Assembly: GCA_021299455.1 (NCBI GenBank)
Contig: JAJTGQ010000004.1
Span: 1 to 44,253 of the forward strand
Length of the DNA stretch: 44,253 nt
Origin: Flammeovirgaceae bacterium
GTDB taxonomy: Bacteria > Bacteroidota > Bacteroidia > Cytophagales > Cyclobacteriaceae
Reading direction: 5' to 3'
Shown here: positions 29,693 to 41,684 of the stretch, piece after piece
Numbering within the stretch: the stretch's first letter is position 1
Layout of the letters: every line of letters begins with the position of its first letter
Position numbers and translations under genes: made by a program
Notes under the pieces: generated by a model
What the model saw: only the letters and a program-made list of their open reading frames with translations
Databases searched by the model: none
What the model was told of the DNA's origin: nothing

Positions 29693-30964
29693 ATGAAAAG
29701 AATACTACTCTTTGTTTTAAGTACCATCCTGCTCATGTTTCTATGGGCTAGCATGGCCCTTTTTGGTACGGTAGACGGTTGGTTTCATCAACCTATTGCT
29801 AGATCAAAAACACCCGCACCTTTTCTTAAGGCTGTAAACGGAGAAATGAATAAACAATTCGTTGGAAATTTTGCGATGGCTGTAATGAAGAATGGAAATG
29901 TTGAACATGAAAAATTCTATTCCGCAGGAAAACCAGTAGATAAAAATACTGTGTTTCAAGTATCATCATTGAGCAAATGGATTTCTGCTGTTGGAATCAT
30001 GAAGCTGGTAGAAGATGGAAAGCTCGACTTAGATGTACCGGTAAGCAACTACTTAACACGATGGCAATTGCCACCCAGTAAATTCAATAGCGAAGAAGTG
30101 ACCGTGCGAAGACTGCTAAGCCATACGGCCGGCCTTACGGATGGACTCGGCTATTCTGGTTTTGAAAAGGGCACCCCAGTACAATCCATTGAACAATCAT
30201 TGACCAAAGCAGCCGATGCGGATGAGGGTATTAGTGGAGAAGTACGTGTTGGCGTGAAGCCTGGCAGTGAGTTTAAATATTCGGGTGGTGGCTATACACT
30301 CCTGCAACTACTGGTGGAAGAAGTAAGCGGAAAGTCCTTTGCTTCTTACATGAAGGAGAACGTATTTATTCCTTTAAACATGCTGCACTCTTCATATGTG
30401 TGGCAAGATTCATCACGTTTTGCGCTAGCGGAGTTTTACAACAGTGACGGAAGCAAGGCTGGTCACTATCGCTACACATCACTTGCCGCTACATCGCTGT
30501 ACACTTCTCTCGCGGATTTAGAATTACTCTTTCAGGCATTTTTGAAAGGAAAAAATAACGAACCCATTGGCAGAAATGTACTTAAACCGGAAACACTGGT
30601 AAAAATGCGAGAGCCTCATGGAAAATCAATGGGGGTAGATATTTGGGGATTGGGAACTGTGCTTTATGCAACGACTGCTGGTAACGATTTCATCATCGGT
30701 CACGATGGAAAGAGCACTCCACCCATCAATACAGCTGTTCGGTTGAACCCGGAAACGGGTGATGGGATCATTGTTCTTGAAACCGGAGACCCCGCACTTG
30801 CCACAAAGTTGGCCAGTGAATGGGTCTTCTGGAGAACCGGAAAAGTGGATACGTTTCTTTTTCCAATGTTGATTGATGAAATGCTTTGGACTATTGGGAT
30901 AGGTTGGGTTGTGATTATCTTAACTACAGTTCTATTACGAGCACTTTACCAACGTGAGCGATAG
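29693..30964 (+). CDS. Class C beta-lactamase-fold serine hydrolase
   Basis: 423 residues. An N-terminal membrane segment (LLFVLSTILLMFLWASMAL) is followed by a penicillin-binding/beta-lactamase domain. The motifs are SLSK (nucleophile Ser92, Lys95), FKYSGGGY (YSG in place of YxN) and IGHDGKS (HxG in place of KTG). These variants are usual for esterase- or peptidase-like members (EstB or D-aminopeptidase type), so antibiotic resistance is not implied. A C-terminal hydrophobic segment (TIGIGWVVIILTTVLL) suggests a second membrane anchor. Third plus-strand gene of a short cluster; an intrinsic terminator follows. Confidence 0.87.
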   Translation: MKRILLFVLSTILLMFLWASMALFGTVDGWFHQPIARSKTPAPFLKAVNGEMNKQFVGNFAMAVMKNGNVEHEKFYSAGKPVDKNTVFQVSSLSKWISAVGIMKLVEDGKLDLDVPVSNYLTRWQLPPSKFNSEEVTVRRLLSHTAGLTDGLGYSGFEKGTPVQSIEQSLTKAADADEGISGEVRVGVKPGSEFKYSGGGYTLLQLLVEEVSGKSFASYMKENVFIPLNMLHSSYVWQDSSRFALAEFYNSDGSKAGHYRYTSLAATSLYTSLADLELLFQAFLKGKNNEPIGRNVLKPETLVKMREPHGKSMGVDIWGLGTVLYATTAGNDFIIGHDGKSTPPINTAVRLNPETGDGIIVLETGDPALATKLASEWVFWRTGKVDTFLFPMLIDEMLWTIGIGWVVIILTTVLLRALYQRER

Positions 30965-30977
30965 AAGAGGGAAGCAA

Positions 30978-31004
30978 AAAGCCCGGAATTTCTCCCGGGC
31001 TTTC
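30978..31004. terminator. Bidirectional terminator between convergent hydrolase and fadE genes
   Basis: AAAGCCCGG (30978-30986) pairs with CCGGGCTTT (30995-31003) around an eight-base loop. The arms carry A-runs on one side and T-runs on the other, so the stem can serve both converging genes. Confidence 0.7.
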
Positions 31005-31006
31005 TT

Positions 31007-31025
31007 ACGTCTTACTACTTATGTC
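31007..31025 (+). repeat. Repeat R, copy 1, just after the fadE stop
   Basis: ACGTCTTACTACTTATGTC lies six bases downstream (on the minus strand) of the fadE TAG. It matches 18/19 to copy 3 (33290-33308, same orientation) and 18/19 to copy 2 (32848-32866, opposite orientation). So fadE itself is bracketed by inverted copies of R. Confidence 0.6.
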
Positions 31026-31031
31026 TAACGT

Positions 31032-32834
31032 CTAGAAAGGATATTCTCCTTTGCCAATAGCATAGTTCGCTACTTTACGTCTGGCTTCTTTCAAGTTATA
31101 AGCATCTATCTTGGTGAAGCGCTTAAGGCCGAGCATCATAAAACGTAGCTCGTCTCCTTCCGCAAACCCGTAGATGGCTTGCTTGCCGGCACCAGCTGCT
31201 TTCTCAATAGCATAGTGCAGATAGATCATCGCCATCGCAATTTCCACTTCACACGCTTTCTCTCCGCGCACGCCCACTAATTTTTCTACACGCAAAATCA
31301 CCGACTCGGCCACATAGCCCTCAATAAGCATATCAGCCAGATTCATTAATATCTCCTGCTCATCAGATAGCTTCATCATAAACTTTTGAATGGCTGCACC
31401 CGATACCATCAGGCCCGCTTTCTTCAAATTCGCCAATGCTTTTTTCTCTTTCGCAAAAAGGGCAGTGTCATCACTTGCACCAAAATCAGGTATAGAAGTC
31501 AATTCTTTTTGCACGGCCATCGCAGGCGTCATCAAATCCAATGTGCCCTTCATCGCACGCTTTAACAACATGTCGATAGTAAGTAATCGGTTGATCTCAT
31601 TCGTTCCTTCAAAAATGCGGTTGATGCGCGCATCGCGATAGGCGCGATCCATCGGCCCTTCTGCCGAGAAGCCCATGCCTCCATAAATCTGCACACCTTC
31701 ATCGACTGAAAAATCTAACACTTCACTGCCGTGTACTTTTAATATGGCGCACTCGATAGCAAATTCTTCCAATGCTTTTAATCTCGCCTGACCTGAATCC
31801 ATACCCCCAGCTACAAATGCATTGTAGGCATCATCAATGTTCTGCGAAGCGCGATAGTGCGCTGACTCTGACGCGAAAATTTTTGTTACCACTTCTGCAA
31901 TCTTATGCTTGATCGCTCCGAAGGTGGAAATAGCCACACCAAATTGCTTGCGCTCATTGGAATACTTGATCGCCTGGCTGATGGTACCCTTCGATCCACC
32001 CAAAGCACCCACACCTAGTTTAATGCGGCCAATGTTTAATATGTTCACCGCGATCTTGAAACCGTTTTCGCGCTCGCTCAATAAATTTTCTACTGGCACT
32101 TTGCAATCGTTAAAGAAAATCTGGCGGGTGGAAGATCCCTTGATACCCATTTTCTTTTCTTCTTCATTCATGGTGATGCCACCAAAGTCTTTCTCTACGA
32201 TAAAAGCCGTAAGGTTTTTGTCGTTGTCGATTTTTGCAAAGACAATAAAAACGTCTGCAAAGCCACCGTTAGTGATCCACATCTTCTGACCGGTGATCAG
32301 ATAATGCTTTCCATCAGCCGTCAATTTTGCTTTGGTCTTTCCGCTGTTAGCATCAGAACCGGAATCAGGTTCTGTCAAACAGTAGCTCGCCTTCCACTCT
32401 CCCGATGCCAGCTTAGGAATGTACTTCTTCTTTTGGGCGTCATTTCCATAATACAAAATCGGCAGTGTGCCAATACCGGTGTGAGCAGAGATCGCTACGG
32501 CAAACGAATAACCTCCGCCAACAGCTTCGGCTACCAACATGGTCGTATTGAAATCCATTCCAAAGCCACCTAGCTCTTGAGGAACGGAGGTACCCAATAG
32601 TCCGAGAGCCCCTGCCTTATCAAGAAGCGAAGGCATCAACTTGGGATCTTTCTGCGAATCAATTAAATCCAAATGCGGATATACTTCTTGTTTCAAAAAG
32701 TCTTTGCACGTTTGTGCAATCATCTTTTGCTCTTCTGTAAATTCTTCAGGAATGAAAATTTCATGTGCCTGTGTTTCGCGGATTAGGAATTCTCCTCCTT
32801 TAATCGCCTTTTTTGTTTCTGTTAGTGTGCTCAT
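31032..32834 (-). CDS. fadE: Acyl-CoA dehydrogenase, long C-terminal type
   Basis: About 600 residues from the ATG at 32834 (MSTLTETKKA); an upstream in-frame start at 32873 overlaps the four-helix-bundle gene and is unlikely. FAD-dependent enzyme that forms the trans-2 double bond in acyl-CoA. Conserved parts are YCLTEPDSGSDANS and MWITNGGFADVFIVFAK (flavin and substrate binding) and GGMGFSAEGPMDRAYRD, RINRIFEGTNEI near the active site. A C-terminal extension of about 180 residues resembles VLCAD/ACAD9 and Bacillus FadE (about 594 residues). Last gene of the marR-fadN-fadA-fadE operon; a four-helix-bundle gene lies directly before it. Confidence 0.92.
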   Translation of the reverse strand: MSTLTETKKAIKGGEFLIRETQAHEIFIPEEFTEEQKMIAQTCKDFLKQEVYPHLDLIDSQKDPKLMPSLLDKAGALGLLGTSVPQELGGFGMDFNTTMLVAEAVGGGYSFAVAISAHTGIGTLPILYYGNDAQKKKYIPKLASGEWKASYCLTEPDSGSDANSGKTKAKLTADGKHYLITGQKMWITNGGFADVFIVFAKIDNDKNLTAFIVEKDFGGITMNEEEKKMGIKGSSTRQIFFNDCKVPVENLLSERENGFKIAVNILNIGRIKLGVGALGGSKGTISQAIKYSNERKQFGVAISTFGAIKHKIAEVVTKIFASESAHYRASQNIDDAYNAFVAGGMDSGQARLKALEEFAIECAILKVHGSEVLDFSVDEGVQIYGGMGFSAEGPMDRAYRDARINRIFEGTNEINRLLTIDMLLKRAMKGTLDLMTPAMAVQKELTSIPDFGASDDTALFAKEKKALANLKKAGLMVSGAAIQKFMMKLSDEQEILMNLADMLIEGYVAESVILRVEKLVGVRGEKACEVEIAMAMIYLHYAIEKAAGAGKQAIYGFAEGDELRFMMLGLKRFTKIDAYNLKEARRKVANYAIGKGEYPF

Positions 32835-32865
32835 AATTTTTTGTGATGACATAAGTAGCAAGACG

Positions 32866-33231
32866 TTAGACATAAGACTCTTGGCGCAGCGTCTTGATCA
32901 GGCCAAAGGTCATTTTTTGTATTTCAGAAATTTTCGTTGTTAGGTTTTCTAGTTGCGCGGAAGAAATAAAGTTTACATCAAGGCTTAGGATGAGAAGTGT
33001 TTCTAGTTCATAAGCAGAGCCAAGACTAATATTCAAAAAATGAGAAAAATCCTTGTCAGTGTTCCTTCCTGCGCCCTCTGCTATGTTCGTTGGGATTGAC
33101 ACCGTGCATCTTCTTATTTGCGAGATTAATCCATACTTTTCAGCTGCGGGAAAAGTTGAAGTAATCTCATAAACCTCCTTAACGAGCTTCCTCGAAATTT
33201 GCCAAACCTTCAACTCTTTAAAATTATGCAT
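32866..33231 (-). CDS. Four-helix-bundle protein, 23S rRNA IVP family (copy 1)
   Basis: 121 residues. FKELKVWQISRKLVKEVYEI, TFPAAEKYGLISQIRRCTVS, IPTNIAEGAGR and LGSAYELETLL match the four-helix-bundle family found in 23S rRNA intervening sequences; a related fold is Avd of diversity-generating retroelements. Such bundles are basic and probably bind nucleic acid; the biological role is unresolved. No reverse transcriptase is present. It sits inside the beta-oxidation operon with no metabolic link. Its final codons (SYV and stop) lie inside the left inverted-repeat arm. Two direct repeats AAGTATCAAG (33236 and 33257, 21 bases apart) precede its start. Confidence 0.9.
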   Translation of the reverse strand: MHNFKELKVWQISRKLVKEVYEITSTFPAAEKYGLISQIRRCTVSIPTNIAEGAGRNTDKDFSHFLNISLGSAYELETLLILSLDVNFISSAQLENLTTKISEIQKMTFGLIKTLRQESYV

Positions 33232-33235
33232 GATA

Positions 33236-33266
33236 AAGTATCAAGTAGTACGACCCAAGTATCAAG
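33236..33266. repeat. Direct repeat AAGTATCAAG x2 before IVP gene 1
   Basis: AAGTATCAAG occurs at 33236-33245 and 33257-33266, exactly 21 bases apart. It could be an operator of the IVP gene or part of the element's terminal structure. Confidence 0.45.
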
Positions 33267-33289
33267 ATAATGGCTATCGAATTCGTCTT

Positions 33290-33308
33290 GCGTCTTACTA
33301 CTTATGTC
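33290..33308 (+). repeat. Repeat R, copy 3, beside the fadA stop
   Basis: GCGTCTTACTACTTATGTC is the core of the right arm of IVP element 1. The similarity to copy 1 extends over about 29 bases (26/29), and both copies run up to the CTA that is the TAG stop codon of the minus-strand gene (fadA here, fadE for copy 1). Confidence 0.6.
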
Positions 33309-33314
33309 TTAAGT

Positions 33315-34490
33315 CTAATTCAGTAATTCATAAATCCCTGCCACTCCCTGTCCTCCGCCTACGCAAGCAGTCACCATTCCGTATTTTTTATTTTGCCTGC
33401 GGAGTTCGTTGAACAATTGAACTGATAAGCGTGCGCCTGATGAACCGAGTGGATGACCCACTGCAATAGCACCTCCGTTGACATTTAGTTTGGATCGATC
33501 AATGCCCAGCTCTTTTACTACCGCCAATGATTGTGCGGCAAAGGCTTCGTTCAACTCAATCAAATCAATGTCTTGTAGTTTCAATCCGGCAATTTTGAGT
33601 GCTTTAGGAATAGCGGCCACAGGACCAATACCCATGATGCGTGGATCAACGCCAGCAGTAGCATAACTCACCATGCGAGCGATGGGTTTTAGATTCAGTT
33701 GCTTCACCATCTTCTCACTCATCACAGCCACGAAGGCTGCGCCATCTGAAGTTTGAGATGAATTTCCAGCGGTAACAGAACCGCCCACCGCAAATACCGG
33801 TTTCAATTTTGATAGCCCTTCAAAGGTGGTGTCCGCACGAATACCTTCATCTTTGTTGACTATGTATTCGCGAGTTTGCTTTTTCATGTTCTCGTCCACA
33901 AACACTTCTTTCACAGTGATGGGCACGACTTCATTCGTGAATTTACCATCCTTCCACGCTGCAGCCGCTTTCACATGCGATTCCACTGAAAATTGATCTT
34001 GCTCTTCGCGGGTAACATTAAATTGCTTTGACACTTCTTCAGCCGTCAACCCCATGCTTGTATAATAAGTCGGGTTGTCTTTGGCGATCGCATAATTCAA
34101 GGCCGTCTTAAAACCCATCACTGGAACTAAAGACATGGACTCTGTTCCACCGGCAATAATTACATCGGCTTGTCCCGCTTGGATGCGATGACTCGCAATA
34201 GCGATAGCCTCCACTCCTGATCCGCAATAGCGATTGATCACCATGCCTGGTGTATCAAGACCAAGCGCAAGCAGTGAAATGATGCGACCCATCTGCATGC
34301 CTTGCTCCGCTTCGGGAACCGCATTGCCAACGATGAGATCATCGACCATTTTGTTTTCTAAGCCGGGGATTGATTTCACCAAGTGTTTAATCACATCCGA
34401 GGCAAGGTCATCCGGCCTTACAAAACGGAACCCTCCTTTTTTTGCTTTGCCTACCGCTGTGCGGAATCCGGCTACGATGTATGCATCCAT
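33315..34490 (-). CDS. fadA: Acetyl-CoA acyltransferase (thiolase)
   Basis: 391 residues, the usual thiolase length. It cleaves 3-ketoacyl-CoA with CoA to release acetyl-CoA, the last step of beta-oxidation. NRYCGSGVEAI has the acyl-accepting Cys89; NGGAIAVGHPLGSSGAR and CVGGGQGVAGIYE hold the second His and Cys of the active site. Start MDAYIVAGFRTAVGKA is typical. In the operon it lies between fadN and fadE as in Bacillus, but each flank has a four-helix-bundle gene within inverted repeats. Confidence 0.95.
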   Translation of the reverse strand: MDAYIVAGFRTAVGKAKKGGFRFVRPDDLASDVIKHLVKSIPGLENKMVDDLIVGNAVPEAEQGMQMGRIISLLALGLDTPGMVINRYCGSGVEAIAIASHRIQAGQADVIIAGGTESMSLVPVMGFKTALNYAIAKDNPTYYTSMGLTAEEVSKQFNVTREEQDQFSVESHVKAAAAWKDGKFTNEVVPITVKEVFVDENMKKQTREYIVNKDEGIRADTTFEGLSKLKPVFAVGGSVTAGNSSQTSDGAAFVAVMSEKMVKQLNLKPIARMVSYATAGVDPRIMGIGPVAAIPKALKIAGLKLQDIDLIELNEAFAAQSLAVVKELGIDRSKLNVNGGAIAVGHPLGSSGARLSVQLFNELRRQNKKYGMVTACVGGGQGVAGIYELLN

Positions 34491-34526
34491 GTCGTTGTGT
34501 TTAAATTCTCAATTTTTATTTTTAAA

Positions 34527-35014
34527 TAGGCAGTAAGCAAAAGCAATAGGCAAAGCTTACTGCATACCGACTTTCTTCTCTCTTCTCAAATATTTTTCGG
34601 GGTTTTCAACCATGTGATTAAGCATTCTACCAACCTCTTCCGATCTTGCCAATAAATCTTTGTACATTTCATCAGCTACATAATTGCAAGCGTAAGAGAA
34701 ATCAAGCCAAGATTGCGTTTCGCTGTTCTCCATATCAGCATCTGACGATTTGCTTACGAAATAGGCTTTATAGCTTCGCTTTCTGTAAGCTTCTGCAACA
34801 CAACTACAGACCGCTCGCGATGATCTTCTAATTTGGTCTGTGAGCGAGTACCTCTCTTCTTTTGGAAATGTCTTTGTCATCTCAAATATTTTCATCGCTA
34901 AATCAAATGCTTTTTTATAAACCGTCAAATCCCTAAAGCTTTGATTTGGTTCATTCATAACCTGTAGCTTATTGCTTATTCTAAATTTTGCCGATTGCTT
35001 TTGCTTACTGCCTA
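34527..35014 (-). mobile_element. Inverted-repeat-bounded IVP element 2 in the fadN-fadA spacer
   Basis: Arms at 34527-34552 and 34989-35014 are inverted repeats with 25/26 matches (core GCAGTAAGCAAAAGCAAT). They enclose a single four-helix-bundle gene. The right arm ends at 35014, directly next to the fadN stop codon (35015-35017). A second, perfect 9-bp dyad (GCAGTAAGC at 34530 and GCTTACTGC at 34555-34563) overlaps the gene's 3' end. The arm sequence is unrelated to that of element 1. The near-perfect arms argue for recent formation or selection to pair. No transposase is present. Confidence 0.5.
34557..34958 (-). CDS. Four-helix-bundle protein, 23S rRNA IVP family (copy 2, long type)
   Basis: 133 residues of the same superfamily as copy 1 but from a different subgroup. 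FRDLTVYKKAFDLAMKIFEM, TFPKEERYSLTDQIRRSSRA and VAEAYRKRSYKAYFVSKSSD replace the NIAEGAGR region; the tail is longer and charged (PEKYLRREKKVGMQ). The two copies are clearly diverged, so they were probably acquired separately rather than by tandem duplication. It is encoded between fadN and fadA inside a 26-bp inverted repeat. Nucleic-acid binding is likely from charge and family; the function is unknown. Confidence 0.9.
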   Translation of the reverse strand: MNEPNQSFRDLTVYKKAFDLAMKIFEMTKTFPKEERYSLTDQIRRSSRAVCSCVAEAYRKRSYKAYFVSKSSDADMENSETQSWLDFSYACNYVADEMYKDLLARSEEVGRMLNHMVENPEKYLRREKKVGMQ

Positions 35015-37414
35015 CTAATTCCTCAATGGTTTCCCTCCCGTTAATATTGCCTGAATTCTTTCCAGTGTTTTCTTCTCACCTGTCAATGACAAGAATGCTT
35101 CGCGCTCAAGATCAAGTAAGTATTGCTCGCTTACTTCTTGTGGAGAGGTCAAATCGCCTCCGCACATAATGTTAGAGATCCACTTGGCAACTTTGGCATC
35201 ATGCTCTGAAATGTACTTGCCCATTTTCATTCCTTGCAAGCCTGCTAAGAACAAAGCTTGACCGGTTCGACCTTGTACTTTAATATTTTTTGCTTGCGGT
35301 TGCATGGTATAGCCTGCTTCCACCAGATCAAGCACGGCTTGCTTAGCATCGGCAATCTGTCTGTCTTTATTCATCGACACGCGGTCGATCTTTTTCAAGA
35401 TGCCAAACTCACGCGCTTCCTCTGCCGAGGTAGCAACTTTTGCTGTCGCAATAGTCATGAACGCATTTTGAAGTGCATTCAATTCCACATCACCTTCTTC
35501 CATCGCATCACTCACCCGTTTGGTGAATTCTTTGGTTCCGCCTCCACCGGGGATTAGTCCAACACCCACTTCTACTAAACCGATATACGTCTCTGCCGCT
35601 GCTTGCGCGATGTCTGCATGCATGGTCATTTCACAACCGCCTCCTAATGTTCTGCCTTGCGGGCAAACTGCCACCGGCACTCCGGAGTACCGAATGCGCA
35701 TCACCGATTGTTGGAAAGCCTTAATCATGAAATCGATTTCATCATAATCTTGCTCGATGGCATACATAAACACCAAGCCTAAATTAGCTCCCAGCGAAAA
35801 GTCTGCACCTTGGTGGCCAATCACCAGACCTTTGTAATCTTTCTCCGCCATATCGATGGCTTTGTTCATTCCCTCGATGACCGCACTGCCTAATGTGAAG
35901 CTCTTGCTATGCCAGCCGAAGTTTAGTACGCCATCGCCCAAATCAATAATTTTTGAATCGGCATTTTTCCAAACGATGTTTTCGCTCTTGTTTTCTAGAA
36001 TGATAAAATTCTCTCTTCCAGAAATCGATTTATATGTCTTGGTAGGAATGTCATAGTACTTCTTCTGGCCGCCTTCTGCTTTGTAGAAGGTTTTGTTTCC
36101 CGAAGCAATCATGTCATACACCCATTGCGCTGGTTTGTATCCGGCTGCTTCCATGAGTGGAATTGATTTTTCAACACCTACCGCATCCCATGTTTCGAAC
36201 GGACCGAGATCCCAACCAAAACCGCCACTCACCGCATCATCAATACGGAAAAGTTCATCGCTGATTTCGGGAATACGGTTAGTCACATATTGGAACAATC
36301 CGTAAAAACAATCGTGATAAAAATCACCAGCCTTATCTTTTCCGGCAAGCAACACTTTGAAGCGATCTTTTAAATTGTCAATCGTCTTCGTTGTTTCAAG
36401 TGTCGCAAATTTTGCTTTTGCCTTTGGCTTGTATTCTAATGTCTTTAAATCCAGAGTTAAGATTTCTGTTTCGCCTTTAGCATTCTTTGATTTTTTATAG
36501 AAGCCTTGGCCTGTCTTATCTCCCAACCATTTGTTCTGCTCGAGCTTCGTAACCACTTCAGGAAGTTTAAACATTTCTCTGCCTTCGTCATTTACTAATC
36601 CGGCATAGAGATTATTGGAAACTTTCACCAAGGTATCTAAACCCACTACATCCGAAGTGCGGAATGTGGCAGACTTTGGTCTGCCGATGACCGGCCCAGT
36701 TAACTTATCTACTTCGTCCACATTCAAGTCAAACTTGCGCATCGAGTCAATTACTTTCAGCAGCCCAAAAATTCCCACCCTGTTTCCAATGAAAGCAGGC
36801 GTGTCTTTGCACAGTACTGTCGTCTTTCCTAGGAAAAGATCGCCATAATGCATCAGGAATTTCGTAACGGCCGGATCAGTCTTCCCTGTTGGGATGATCT
36901 CCAATAATTTTAAGTAGCGGGGAGGGTTAAAAAAGTGTGTGCCCGCAAAATGCTTTTGAAAATCTTCGCTACGCCCTTCGCCCATCAAATGAATGGGAAT
37001 ACCCGAAGTATTAGAAGTAATTAAAGTGCCTGGCGTTCTGTACTTCTCAACCTCTTCATAAACTTTCTTTTTAATGTCCAGGTTCTCGACAACGACTTCG
37101 ATTGTCCAATCAACATTTTTGATTTTGGACATATCATCTGTGAAATTGCCCAGCTTGATACGTGAAGCAAACTTTTTGCTAAACAGCGAAGCAGGATTGG
37201 CTTTCAACGTGGCATCGAAGGCTGCAGTCACAATTCTGTTTTTGACAGCCGGATGATCGAGGGTTAAGTTCTTCTTTTTCTCATCATCTGTAAGTTCTCT
37301 GGGCGCGATATCCAGCAGCAGCACTTCACAACCAATATTGGCGAAGTGGCACGCAATGCGTGAGCCCATAATACCTGATCCTAAAACTGCGACTTTGCGA
37401 ATGGTACGGTTCAT
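35015..37414 (-). CDS. fadN: 3-hydroxyacyl-CoA dehydrogenase / enoyl-CoA hydratase fusion
   Basis: 799 residues. The NAD-binding dehydrogenase part comes first (VAVLGSGIMGSRIACHFANIG region with GxGxxG, then SNTSGIPI, GTHFFNPPRYLKLLEII and CKDTPAFIGNRVG). The hydratase part follows in the last 330 residues (GADFSLGANLG, PQGRTLGGGCEMTMHADIA, VEVGVGLIPGGGGTKEF). This dehydrogenase-then-hydratase order is that of Bacillus FadN, the reverse of E. coli FadB. It hydrates enoyl-CoA and oxidises the product to 3-ketoacyl-CoA for the thiolase. Second gene of the operon, 78 bases after marR. Confidence 0.94.
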   Translation of the reverse strand: MNRTIRKVAVLGSGIMGSRIACHFANIGCEVLLLDIAPRELTDDEKKKNLTLDHPAVKNRIVTAAFDATLKANPASLFSKKFASRIKLGNFTDDMSKIKNVDWTIEVVVENLDIKKKVYEEVEKYRTPGTLITSNTSGIPIHLMGEGRSEDFQKHFAGTHFFNPPRYLKLLEIIPTGKTDPAVTKFLMHYGDLFLGKTTVLCKDTPAFIGNRVGIFGLLKVIDSMRKFDLNVDEVDKLTGPVIGRPKSATFRTSDVVGLDTLVKVSNNLYAGLVNDEGREMFKLPEVVTKLEQNKWLGDKTGQGFYKKSKNAKGETEILTLDLKTLEYKPKAKAKFATLETTKTIDNLKDRFKVLLAGKDKAGDFYHDCFYGLFQYVTNRIPEISDELFRIDDAVSGGFGWDLGPFETWDAVGVEKSIPLMEAAGYKPAQWVYDMIASGNKTFYKAEGGQKKYYDIPTKTYKSISGRENFIILENKSENIVWKNADSKIIDLGDGVLNFGWHSKSFTLGSAVIEGMNKAIDMAEKDYKGLVIGHQGADFSLGANLGLVFMYAIEQDYDEIDFMIKAFQQSVMRIRYSGVPVAVCPQGRTLGGGCEMTMHADIAQAAAETYIGLVEVGVGLIPGGGGTKEFTKRVSDAMEEGDVELNALQNAFMTIATAKVATSAEEAREFGILKKIDRVSMNKDRQIADAKQAVLDLVEAGYTMQPQAKNIKVQGRTGQALFLAGLQGMKMGKYISEHDAKVAKWISNIMCGGDLTSPQEVSEQYLLDLEREAFLSLTGEKKTLERIQAILTGGKPLRN

Positions 37415-37419
37415 AATTG

Positions 37420-37481
37420 GTTGTTGGTTGTTCGTTATTTGTTGTTGGTTAGCGGCCTTCGATCAACGAACAACCACCAAC
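37420..37481. repeat. Gene-free inverted repeat in the marR-fadN spacer
   Basis: GTTGTTGGTTGTTCGTT (37420-37436) and AACGAACAACCACCAAC (37465-37481) are inverted repeats with 16/17 matches around a 28-base loop. Further partial copies (GTTGTTGGTT, GATCAACGA) sit in the loop and outside. It fills almost the whole spacer. The style matches the IVP element arms, but no gene is enclosed. An attenuator hairpin or operator for the MarR protein is an alternative. Confidence 0.55.
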
Positions 37482-37492
37482 GATCAACGATC

Positions 37493-37942
37493 TCATTGTA
37501 AAACTTTATCGTAAATACTATTCTTTTCAACTAATTGATTAATGGTTTGTACTACATCAAAAAACACATTTAGCTTTTGTGTAGAAACTTCTTCCCGAAC
37601 TGCTTCATTAAATCGCAATACAGTTTCCCGCGATTTCTCTTTCATCTTCTTCCCCTCGTTTGTCAACAAGACTTTTACGGAACGCTTATCGTTTTTGTCG
37701 ACTTGTCTAAAGATCAGGCCCTTCTCCTCCATTGACTGTAAGAGCCTGGTGAGGCTTCTTGGTTCCAATCCCATCAACGGCCCGATCTTCATCGCAGCAG
37801 TCCCTTCTTCCGAAGAAATATTCAGCAACGCATAGCCAATCGACATGGTCCCATCATACTTCATGGCCTGCTGATTGTACATGCGCGCGATGGCATGCCA
37901 GGCAGTCTTAATGTGATAGTCTATGGTTTCTTCTCTTTTCAA
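37493..37942 (-). CDS. MarR-family regulator of beta-oxidation
   Basis: 149 residues if started at TTG 37942 (LKREETIDYHIKTAWHAIAR). The winged-helix region is visible: GYALLNISSEEGTAAMKIGP, LEPRSLTRLLQSMEEKGLIF and NDKRSVKVLLTNEGKKM. The frame stays open upstream to 38041, but those residues (CSKKIRKKYFRKYSACRIIF) are unlike MarR proteins, and a promoter-like TACCTTCG lies seven bases before the TTG. As first gene of the operon it probably represses fadNAE until an acyl-CoA ligand binds, by analogy with MarR/FadR-type control; the ligand is not shown by sequence. Confidence 0.85.
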   Translation of the reverse strand: MKREETIDYHIKTAWHAIARMYNQQAMKYDGTMSIGYALLNISSEEGTAAMKIGPLMGLEPRSLTRLLQSMEEKGLIFRQVDKNDKRSVKVLLTNEGKKMKEKSRETVLRFNEAVREEVSTQKLNVFFDVVQTINQLVEKNSIYDKVLQ

Positions 37943-37949
37943 ACGGATG

Positions 37950-37957
37950 CGAAGGTA
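37950..37957 (-). promoter_or_regulatory. -7 box TACCTTCG of the marR-fadNAE operon
   Basis: On the minus strand TACCTTCG matches TAnnTTTG in 7/8 positions and ends seven bases before the TTG start of marR. No TTTG is seen 19 bases upstream. It supports the TTG start and a very short leader. Confidence 0.35.
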
Positions 37958-38132
37958 TAAAAAAATTATTCTGCATGCCGAGTATTTTCTGAAATATTTT
38001 TTCCTGATTTTTTTAGAGCACATGACTTCAGTCAGCAGCATTACTACTGAAAATCATAGCAAGGCCTAAAGAATGTCATGTCCCCACAAAAAACCTTCAG
38101 CCACTTTTGGGCTGACAAAAAGACAAAACCTT

Positions 38133-40898: not shown

Positions 40899-41684
40899 AT
40901 GCCCATTCAACTGATCAACGGAGCACACATGTATTTTGAGCGATCCGGTGAGGGAGACGAAATTATCGTGTTCTCACACGGGCTACTTTTTAATCACCAC
41001 ATGTGGGATGCTCAAGTGGCACATTTCAAGAATAACTTTTGTTGCATTGCCTATGATCACCGAGGGCAGGGGCAAAGCGATTCCATCGGGAATTTGGATA
41101 TGGATACGCTCTATGAAGATGCGGCTACTTTGATTGAGGCATTATGTCCAGGTAAGCCCGTCCATTTTGTTGGTCTTAGCATGGGTGGCTTTGTCGGTAT
41201 GCGATTGGCTGCCCGTAAACCACAATTGCTCAAAAGCCTTATTCTGCTAGACACGTCTGCCGATCCTGAACCCAACAGACTTAAATATCTTCTGCTGAAT
41301 CAGGTGTTTGGGTGGGGAGGGGCTAAGCTGGTAAGTGACAAAGTCATCCGCATTCTATTTGGAAAATCTTCATTGGAAGATCCGTCTAAAAAATCAATTC
41401 TTGAAATGTGGAAAAGAACCATTGAAAACCATCCTAGAAACATAACCAAAGCCGTGGCGGGAGTCATCTATCGAAAAGGTATTTACGAAGAGCTTTCACA
41501 AATCAACACCAAAACCTTAGTAGCGGTGGGTGATGAAGATGTGGCGACTACGCCCGCGAAAGCCGAAAGAATTCATCAGGCTATTTCAAATTCTCAATTC
41601 AAACGTATTGCCAGAGCTGGCCATAGTGCATGCATTGAACAACCGGAGTCTGTCAATCAGCTTATCGGGAGTTTTATACGGTAG
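40899..41684 (+). CDS. Alpha/beta hydrolase
   Basis: 261 residues, cytoplasmic, without a signal peptide. FSHGLLFNHHMW (oxyanion region), YDHRGQGQSD, VGLSMGGFVGM (nucleophile Ser94), VAVGDEDVATTP (Asp) and ARAGHSACIEQP (His) give a complete catalytic triad. The pattern is that of the 3-oxoadipate enol-lactonase / esterase group, but no aromatic-degradation genes are next to it, apart from a carboxymuconolactone-decarboxylase-family gene at 42766. The start follows directly on a short spacer with a 7-bp hairpin at 40814-40830 (GTTCCTG/CAGGAAC). Confidence 0.88.
   Translation: MPIQLINGAHMYFERSGEGDEIIVFSHGLLFNHHMWDAQVAHFKNNFCCIAYDHRGQGQSDSIGNLDMDTLYEDAATLIEALCPGKPVHFVGLSMGGFVGMRLAARKPQLLKSLILLDTSADPEPNRLKYLLLNQVFGWGGAKLVSDKVIRILFGKSSLEDPSKKSILEMWKRTIENHPRNITKAVAGVIYRKGIYEELSQINTKTLVAVGDEDVATTPAKAERIHQAISNSQFKRIARAGHSACIEQPESVNQLIGSFIR

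Follow-up and report, generated by a model that had tools for sequence, protein, structure and literature searches.

We judge it fairly probable that the spacer between fadN and fadA in the window (the whole stretch of 44,253 nt analysed here) holds an insertion element of about 490 bp, L005, which is of the rRNA-IVS kind and lies in a protein operon, and that its gene-less companions resemble REPINs. Its parts are an IVP gene and two inverted arms, one on either side; in the family as a whole, such arms are mostly arrays of some four to five heptamers. The element immediately follows the stop codon of fadN and is read with the operon.

The upstream arm, given on the coding strand, was placed at 34982–35014 (minus strand) by an inverted-repeat and alignment search. 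The downstream arm (34527–34559, minus) is its reverse complement and ends 36 nt short of the fadA start codon. The arms measure 33 nt each, are 91% complementary and have 422 nt between them. Their core matches at 27 of 28 nt and contains the 25/26 match described in the earlier note. The alignment score of 51 exceeded the maximum of 24 obtained from 100 shuffles, and the pair ranked first among the inverted repeats of the 44 kb window (at least 18 nt, copies no more than 700 bp apart). The outer arm ends at 35014 and the TAG stop of fadN occupies 35015–35017, confirming that the two abut. The IVP gene between the arms (34557–34958, minus) encodes 133 residues and scored 97.7 bits with TIGR02436 (cut-off 24). 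It is flanked by genes for a fadN-like 3-hydroxyacyl-CoA dehydrogenase/enoyl-CoA hydratase (35015–37414), a fadA-like acyl-CoA thiolase (33315–34490) and, further on, a fadE-like acyl-CoA dehydrogenase (31032–32873), all on the minus strand. Between the outer arm ends of L005, no ORF of at least 90 residues was found except the IVP, and no transposase, nuclease or RAYT gene. A search of Rfam gave no match up to E 1 in 30900–38100.

Read from the fadN stop, the upstream arm parses as TAGTAGG CAGTAAG CAAAAG CAATCGG CAAA, i.e., as CARTNNN-like units, one of them of 6 nt. The periodicity of the L005 arms was itself not significant: lag 7 on the upstream side was matched by 17 of 60 shuffles, and the best lag on the downstream side, 6, by 6 of 60. 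We adopted the CARTNNN reading because relatives at the fadN–fadA site show such units. When eight other loci at this site were examined, one side or both gave a significant period in the orthologues L008, L011, L024 and L045, and neither side did in L010, L012, L033 and L084.

Elements occur in three spacers of the fad operon of the window. The fadA–fadE spacer carries a second IVP gene (32866–33231, minus; 121 residues; TIGR02436, 128.9 bits), which is bracketed by the second-ranked inverted repeat of the window. Its upstream arm (33285–33308, minus) is of the AAGTAGTAAGAC type, with lag 7 on that side, and its downstream arm lies at 32848–32871 (minus). The marR–fadN spacer is filled by a gene-less inverted repeat of TSGTTNN heptamers (37417–37492, no strand assigned). 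Both arrays of this hairpin were the only period-7 stretches in the window to score at least 12. Neither the hairpin nor the second IVP gene figures in the earlier note. A separate 21-nt inverted repeat of 86% (41020–41040 / 41390–41410) lies inside the ORF 40899–41684.

A TIGR02436 search of the 3.9-Mb assembly to which the window belongs yielded six genes. Five are found in the contexts fadN-X-fadA, fadA-X-fadE, murD-X-ftsW, mraZ-X-rsmH and metH-X-metF, and the sixth has an M20-peptidase gene upstream and a NUDIX gene and argH downstream; neighbour names outside the fad genes are our reading of the translations. All six share the direction of their neighbours. The arm score was reached by none of 100 shuffles at five of the IVPs and by two at the other one. 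Periodicity on at least one side was seen at lag 7 or 14 in L001, L002, L003 and L006, and at lag 8 in L004. The arms of the six copies differ greatly from each other. The same genome has one reverse transcriptase-family gene (L371, G000:C156), on a contig without any of the six IVPs.

The wider sample was made up of 80 loci with relatives of the window protein, another 57 taken from samples of the order and the phylum, and the six genes above. These 143 loci gave 126 non-redundant ones with flanks, leaving out L025, L055, L083 and L173 (broken or short frames), 11 near-identical proteins and 2 loci without flanks. Significant inverted arms were detected at 92 of the 126 and were lacking at the other 34; of 345 control genes taken from the same sequences, 19 showed them. 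The share was 57 of 69 among query-like loci and 35 of 57 among the others. The inverted-arm architecture is general for IVP loci. A period of 7 or 14 was found on one side or both in 86 of the 126 loci; 70 of these belong to the 92 that have arms. Significant upstream flanks (n = 76) showed lag 7 in 41 cases and lag 14 in 22 (63 together), and downstream flanks (n = 78) in 45 and 21 (66 together). The median arm was 29 nt and the median element 492 bp, with medians of 4.4 and 4.6 units per flank where the 7/14 period was significant (55 and 51 flanks). Of 148 genomes sampled from the phylum, taken as Bacteroidota, 114 had TIGR02436 genes, with up to 16 each. The contexts of the elements extend beyond beta-oxidation operons and include fad, nuo, mur, met, arg and mraZ genes (names from translations).

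The placement of the elements follows a pattern. The upstream neighbour was co-oriented with the IVP in 71 of 76 loci, and both neighbours in 61 of 76, redundant loci being included in these counts. In 51 of 87 loci, no more than 9 nt separate the start of the arm from the upstream stop. This stop was TAG in 41 of 87, compared with 73 of 301 control genes (p = 9e-5). At the fadN–fadA site, fadN ended in TAG in 18 of 23 IVP-filled and 6 of 37 unfilled spacers, in related genomes that are not independent. The stop-codon placement is probably a survival filter, which would spare the coding sequence and the leader of the next gene.

Besides a mobile element, the earlier note had offered an mRNA-processing device that separates fadN from fadA. 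In such a device, the arms would pair in the fadN–fadA transcript and RNase III would cut the stem, freeing the IVP message and parting the two genes. The predicted fold of the minus-strand RNA (35030–34500) does contain the stem (−132.5 kcal/mol, z = −3.48, none of 100 shuffles as good). The predominant co-orientation with operons also speaks for the device, as does the precedent of the Coxiella 23S IVS, which ends in a 28-bp stem and is an in vitro substrate of RNase III according to the available part of PMC4990558. Were the arms kept similar by pairing in RNA, more G–U than A–C mismatches would be expected. Such an excess was not observed: the pooled counts were 113 G–U and 110 A–C (95% CI of the G–U share 0.44–0.57), composed of 80 and 84 in the 92 loci, and 33 and 26 in 41 of 57 further loci. 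Selection on an RNA stem is thus unsupported, and the unbiased mismatches favour insertion units at the DNA level over an RNA device. The absence of the gene from most order-level spacers and the differences between close relatives, both described below, also count against processing. Apart from the predicted stem and the rRNA precedent, the processing option receives little support; we regard it as improbable. The stem would form in the mRNA, probably as a by-product.

The composition of the arms tracks the IVP clade. Similarity of arm 4-mers correlated with IVP similarity across 92 loci (rho = 0.551; maximum of 500 permutations 0.166), compared with rho = 0.058 for a control flank. The agreement comes in part from shared descent. 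Many IVPs of the window type have CARTNNN arms, in Bacteroidota groups, Ignavibacteria, Scalindua, Cloacimonadota and Calditrichaceae, and the arms of other IVP clades are built of AAGTNNN, GTGAGNN, TSGTTNN and other units. At a finer level, 12 of the 17 CARTNNN matches listed for G105 (21 in all) are made of CAGTGCY units, 8 of these 12 being one array, and the arms of its IVP L287 read CAGTGCA CAGGGCC CAGAGCT CAGTGCT. Locus-specificity of the variable heptamer positions was apparent in a fixed register (0.75/0.59/0.77 within and 0.32/0.32/0.43 between loci) and was lost under best local alignment, which gave 0.74 between loci against 0.70 within; we therefore relied on rank scores only. By rank, the own downstream flank came first in 29 of 126 loci and was among the top 5% in 74. 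In the CARTNNN class, it was best in 10 of 38 and in the top 10% in 22. Evidence for concerted evolution of orthologous arms was weak and mixed: similarity within and between was 0.853 and 0.783 in the fad set, and 0.829 and 0.821 in the Mucilaginibacter set.

Arrays were also found without a gene. Strict TSGTTNN×3 matches, with overlaps counted and the reversed control in brackets, numbered 18 (1) in the genome of the window, 43 (0) in G019, 12 (0) in G078, 11 (2) in G064, and 0–5 (0–7) in seven others. Merged, they form 11 arrays at 10 sites in the genome of the window and 29 arrays at 22 sites in G019, some adjoining an IVP. Among 20 TSGTTNN sites, 16 were intergenic, and 11 had an inverted partner, all 2–40 nt away. 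CARTNNN matches, again with the control in brackets, numbered 37 (3) in G035, 27 (7) in G050, 55 (14) in G091, 21 (2) in G105, 14 (8) in G064, 10 (5) in G078, 6 (0) in G019, 44 (65) in G132 and 1 (8) in G119; strict matches were absent from the genome of the window (control 2) and from G144 (control 0). G019 has seven IVP genes, and one of these shares the TSGTTNN motif with two gene-less spacers. TSGTTNN arms were found on none of the six IVPs of the genome of the window. Some genomes thus carry many arrays of a motif that is absent from their own IVP arms (TSGTTNN in the genome of the window, CARTNNN in G035). Among 11 gene-less inverted spacers of fad operons, 6 agreed in motif, as judged by eye, with an IVP of their own operon, and 5 did not.

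These arrays could mean that IVP genes are passengers in pre-existing hairpins, the arrays spreading alone by slippage, template switching or recombination. An excess of TSGTTNN sites over IVP genes (10 and 6 in the genome of the window, 22 and 7 in G019) and the genomes that have arrays without any IVP of that motif would fit such a history. It would not, however, lead one to expect that the arm motif follows the IVP clade. It is also at odds with two cases from the comparison of relatives. In one Cloacimonadota genome, two copies are 86% identical over 612 bp including the arms, with unrelated flanks. At nuoF–nuoG in one genus, the spacer is 13 nt in G215 and G211 and a 64-nt gene-less sequence in G200, G244 and G173, whereas G185 has an IVP element of 455 nt there. 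The arms of the latter were matched by 1 of 500 shuffles and have lag 14 on both sides; the 64-nt spacers are different, with a weak and non-heptameric inverted repeat (matched by 14–22 of 500 shuffles). Inspection by eye revealed no target-site duplication. We consider passenger genes an unlikely explanation. In L338, the G185 locus, the end of nuoF misses a short stretch present in relatives, 5' of the element, possibly by an assembly error.

The comparison of relatives revealed turnover at the fad sites as well. The fadN–fadA survey covered 80 stretches, of which 20 were without a readable pair and 60 were measured; 50 of the 60 came from an order search, which matched 119 genomes, 70 of them covered here. 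Spacers with and without the gene, which the earlier note had proposed to look for, were both found. An IVP gene was present in 23 of the 60, 11 being of the window type and 12 more similar to the second IVP. At the order level, 13 of 50 spacers had the gene and 37 did not, which is contrary to a gene that is always present in spacers devoid of inverted repeats. Two genomes of the same genus have no IVP at this site and spacers of 94–95 bp with inverted repeats. A close relative, 93.7% identical in nucleotides over 3.1 kb and 98% in FadN, has the same fadN–fadA element. Its fadA–fadE spacer holds an IVP that is 52% identical to that of the window and has a different motif, and its marR–fadN spacer a different repeat. 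At one Scalindua site in two genomes, the IVPs are 91.5% identical and the flanks 74–76%. The presence and absence of an element at nuoF–nuoG within one genus, the different fadA–fadE IVP in the close relative and the duplication that includes the arms support the mobile-element option of the earlier note. In L124 and L136, the fadN–fadA spacers are filled by other palindromes, CCCCTCCTT...AAGGAGGGG, and a similar one is found in L142.

Host-selected regulatory cassettes, tuning the translation or stability of operon genes and swapped by homologous recombination, would be another way to account for such sites. In their favour, the fadN–fadA spacer is the site of the IVP in 10 of the 80 loci whose protein is related to that of the window, and IVP genes are under purifying selection: ten of 13 pairs gave dN/dS values, eight of 0.04–0.13, one of 0 and one of 0.33. 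The purifying selection speaks equally for the insertion-element reading. The turnover, the absence from near relatives and the varied gene contexts listed above point the other way, and we find this explanation very unlikely.

We know of no established function for TIGR02436 genes. The IVP of L005 was predicted to fold with a pLDDT of 93.7, and the model matched 2gsc, 2rld and, more weakly, 4dwl. Its score above the curated cut-off and the predicted four-helix bundle place it in the IVP/S23p family, to which it had been assigned from the letters alone. It shares the fold of the Avd protein of DGRs (4dwl_D, TM 0.73/0.89, Foldseek E 0.01), but scored only 36.5 bits on the NCBIfam Avd model, against a cut-off of 80. 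A resident reverse transcriptase as mobiliser is unsupported, because 9 of 14 genomes with IVPs have no member of the family PF00078. Solved homologues of the S23p family crystallise with five chains, and S23p is described as a homopentamer in the available part of PMC4990558. On the insertion-element reading, which we prefer, an IVP oligomer may recognise the repeats and could help arrays to spread, whether or not they contain the gene, by analogy with what has been proposed for RAYTs and REPINs. Enzymes for cutting or copying would be supplied by the host. Several observations count against this reading: the arms of L005 have no significant period and L004 has period 8, the six copies in the genome of the window differ greatly in their arms, strict CARTNNN matches are absent there, some genomes abound in arrays of a motif foreign to their IVP arms, 34 of the 126 loci lack significant arms, the gene-less nuo spacer has a weak, non-heptameric repeat, and neither a transposase or nuclease gene nor a target-site duplication was seen.

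The nearest known systems resemble L005 in different respects. The 23S IVS of Coxiella burnetii has 428 nt, a 28-bp stem and direct heptameric repeats upstream of the S23p ORF (PMC4990558, available part). L005 likewise has an IVP gene between terminal inverted repeats, with arms of 28–33 nt and a length of about 490 bp. As for heptameric repeats beside the ORF, 86 of 126 loci of the family have lag 7 or 14, and L005 alone gives no significant period. L005 lies between fadN and fadA and not in rRNA, and for this reason we did not file it as a 23S IVS. The present elements further differ in occupying protein-operon spacers at stop codons, in their many repeat types and in the gene-less arrays elsewhere. 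REPINs, as portrayed in the available part of PMC3116915, are short extragenic hairpins of inverted repeats, with non-autonomous copies near a specific protein gene. Extragenic inverted hairpins, non-autonomous copies and a nearby specific protein gene are found here too, and as for dispersed doublets beside a gene with the same repeats, 11 of 20 TSGTTNN sites have an inverted partner; the motif is shared by an IVP in G019, but by none in the genome of the window, where the CARTNNN type of L005 has no strict matches either. In contrast to the REPIN/RAYT system, L005 has no RAYT gene, its protein is a four-helix bundle, and IVP arms are arrays of short units that vary from site to site. L005 differs from an insertion sequence in that its single gene encodes this 133-residue bundle and not a transposase. 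The TAACTGA heptamers of Beggiatoaceae form arrays that mostly lie a short way upstream of start codons and are described as direct repeats, a single case being inverted (PMC4679880, available part). Reverse-complementing TAACTGA gives a unit of the CARTNNN type, and the heptamer is oriented as in a downstream arm, but the available part of PMC4679880 does not link these repeats to an IVP. We found no published account of such elements among the matches listed by a full-text search, judged by title and abstract opening, with subscription journals and preprints outside its scope.

A more ambitious and rather doubtful proposal would join these observations in a mobile system free of transposase. 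Each subunit of an IVP pentamer would read one heptamer of an array of about five, and the pentamer would spread hairpins and its own gene; the heptamer would serve as a clade-specific 'address', with rRNA IVS and TAACTGA arrays as special cases. The link between IVPs and typed arrays gives a testable hypothesis of sequence-specific binding and mobilisation in trans. It also places the puzzle of the rRNA IVS within a broader group of elements, and some dispersed heptamer repeats could have originated in this way. Gene-less ACCACAAAGAACACAGAG / CTTAGTGTCTTTGTGG spacers were seen in two distant groups, at nuoF–nuoG in L340, L339 and L341 and at fadN–fadA in L237, and they appear related to a common bacterial intergenic repeat.
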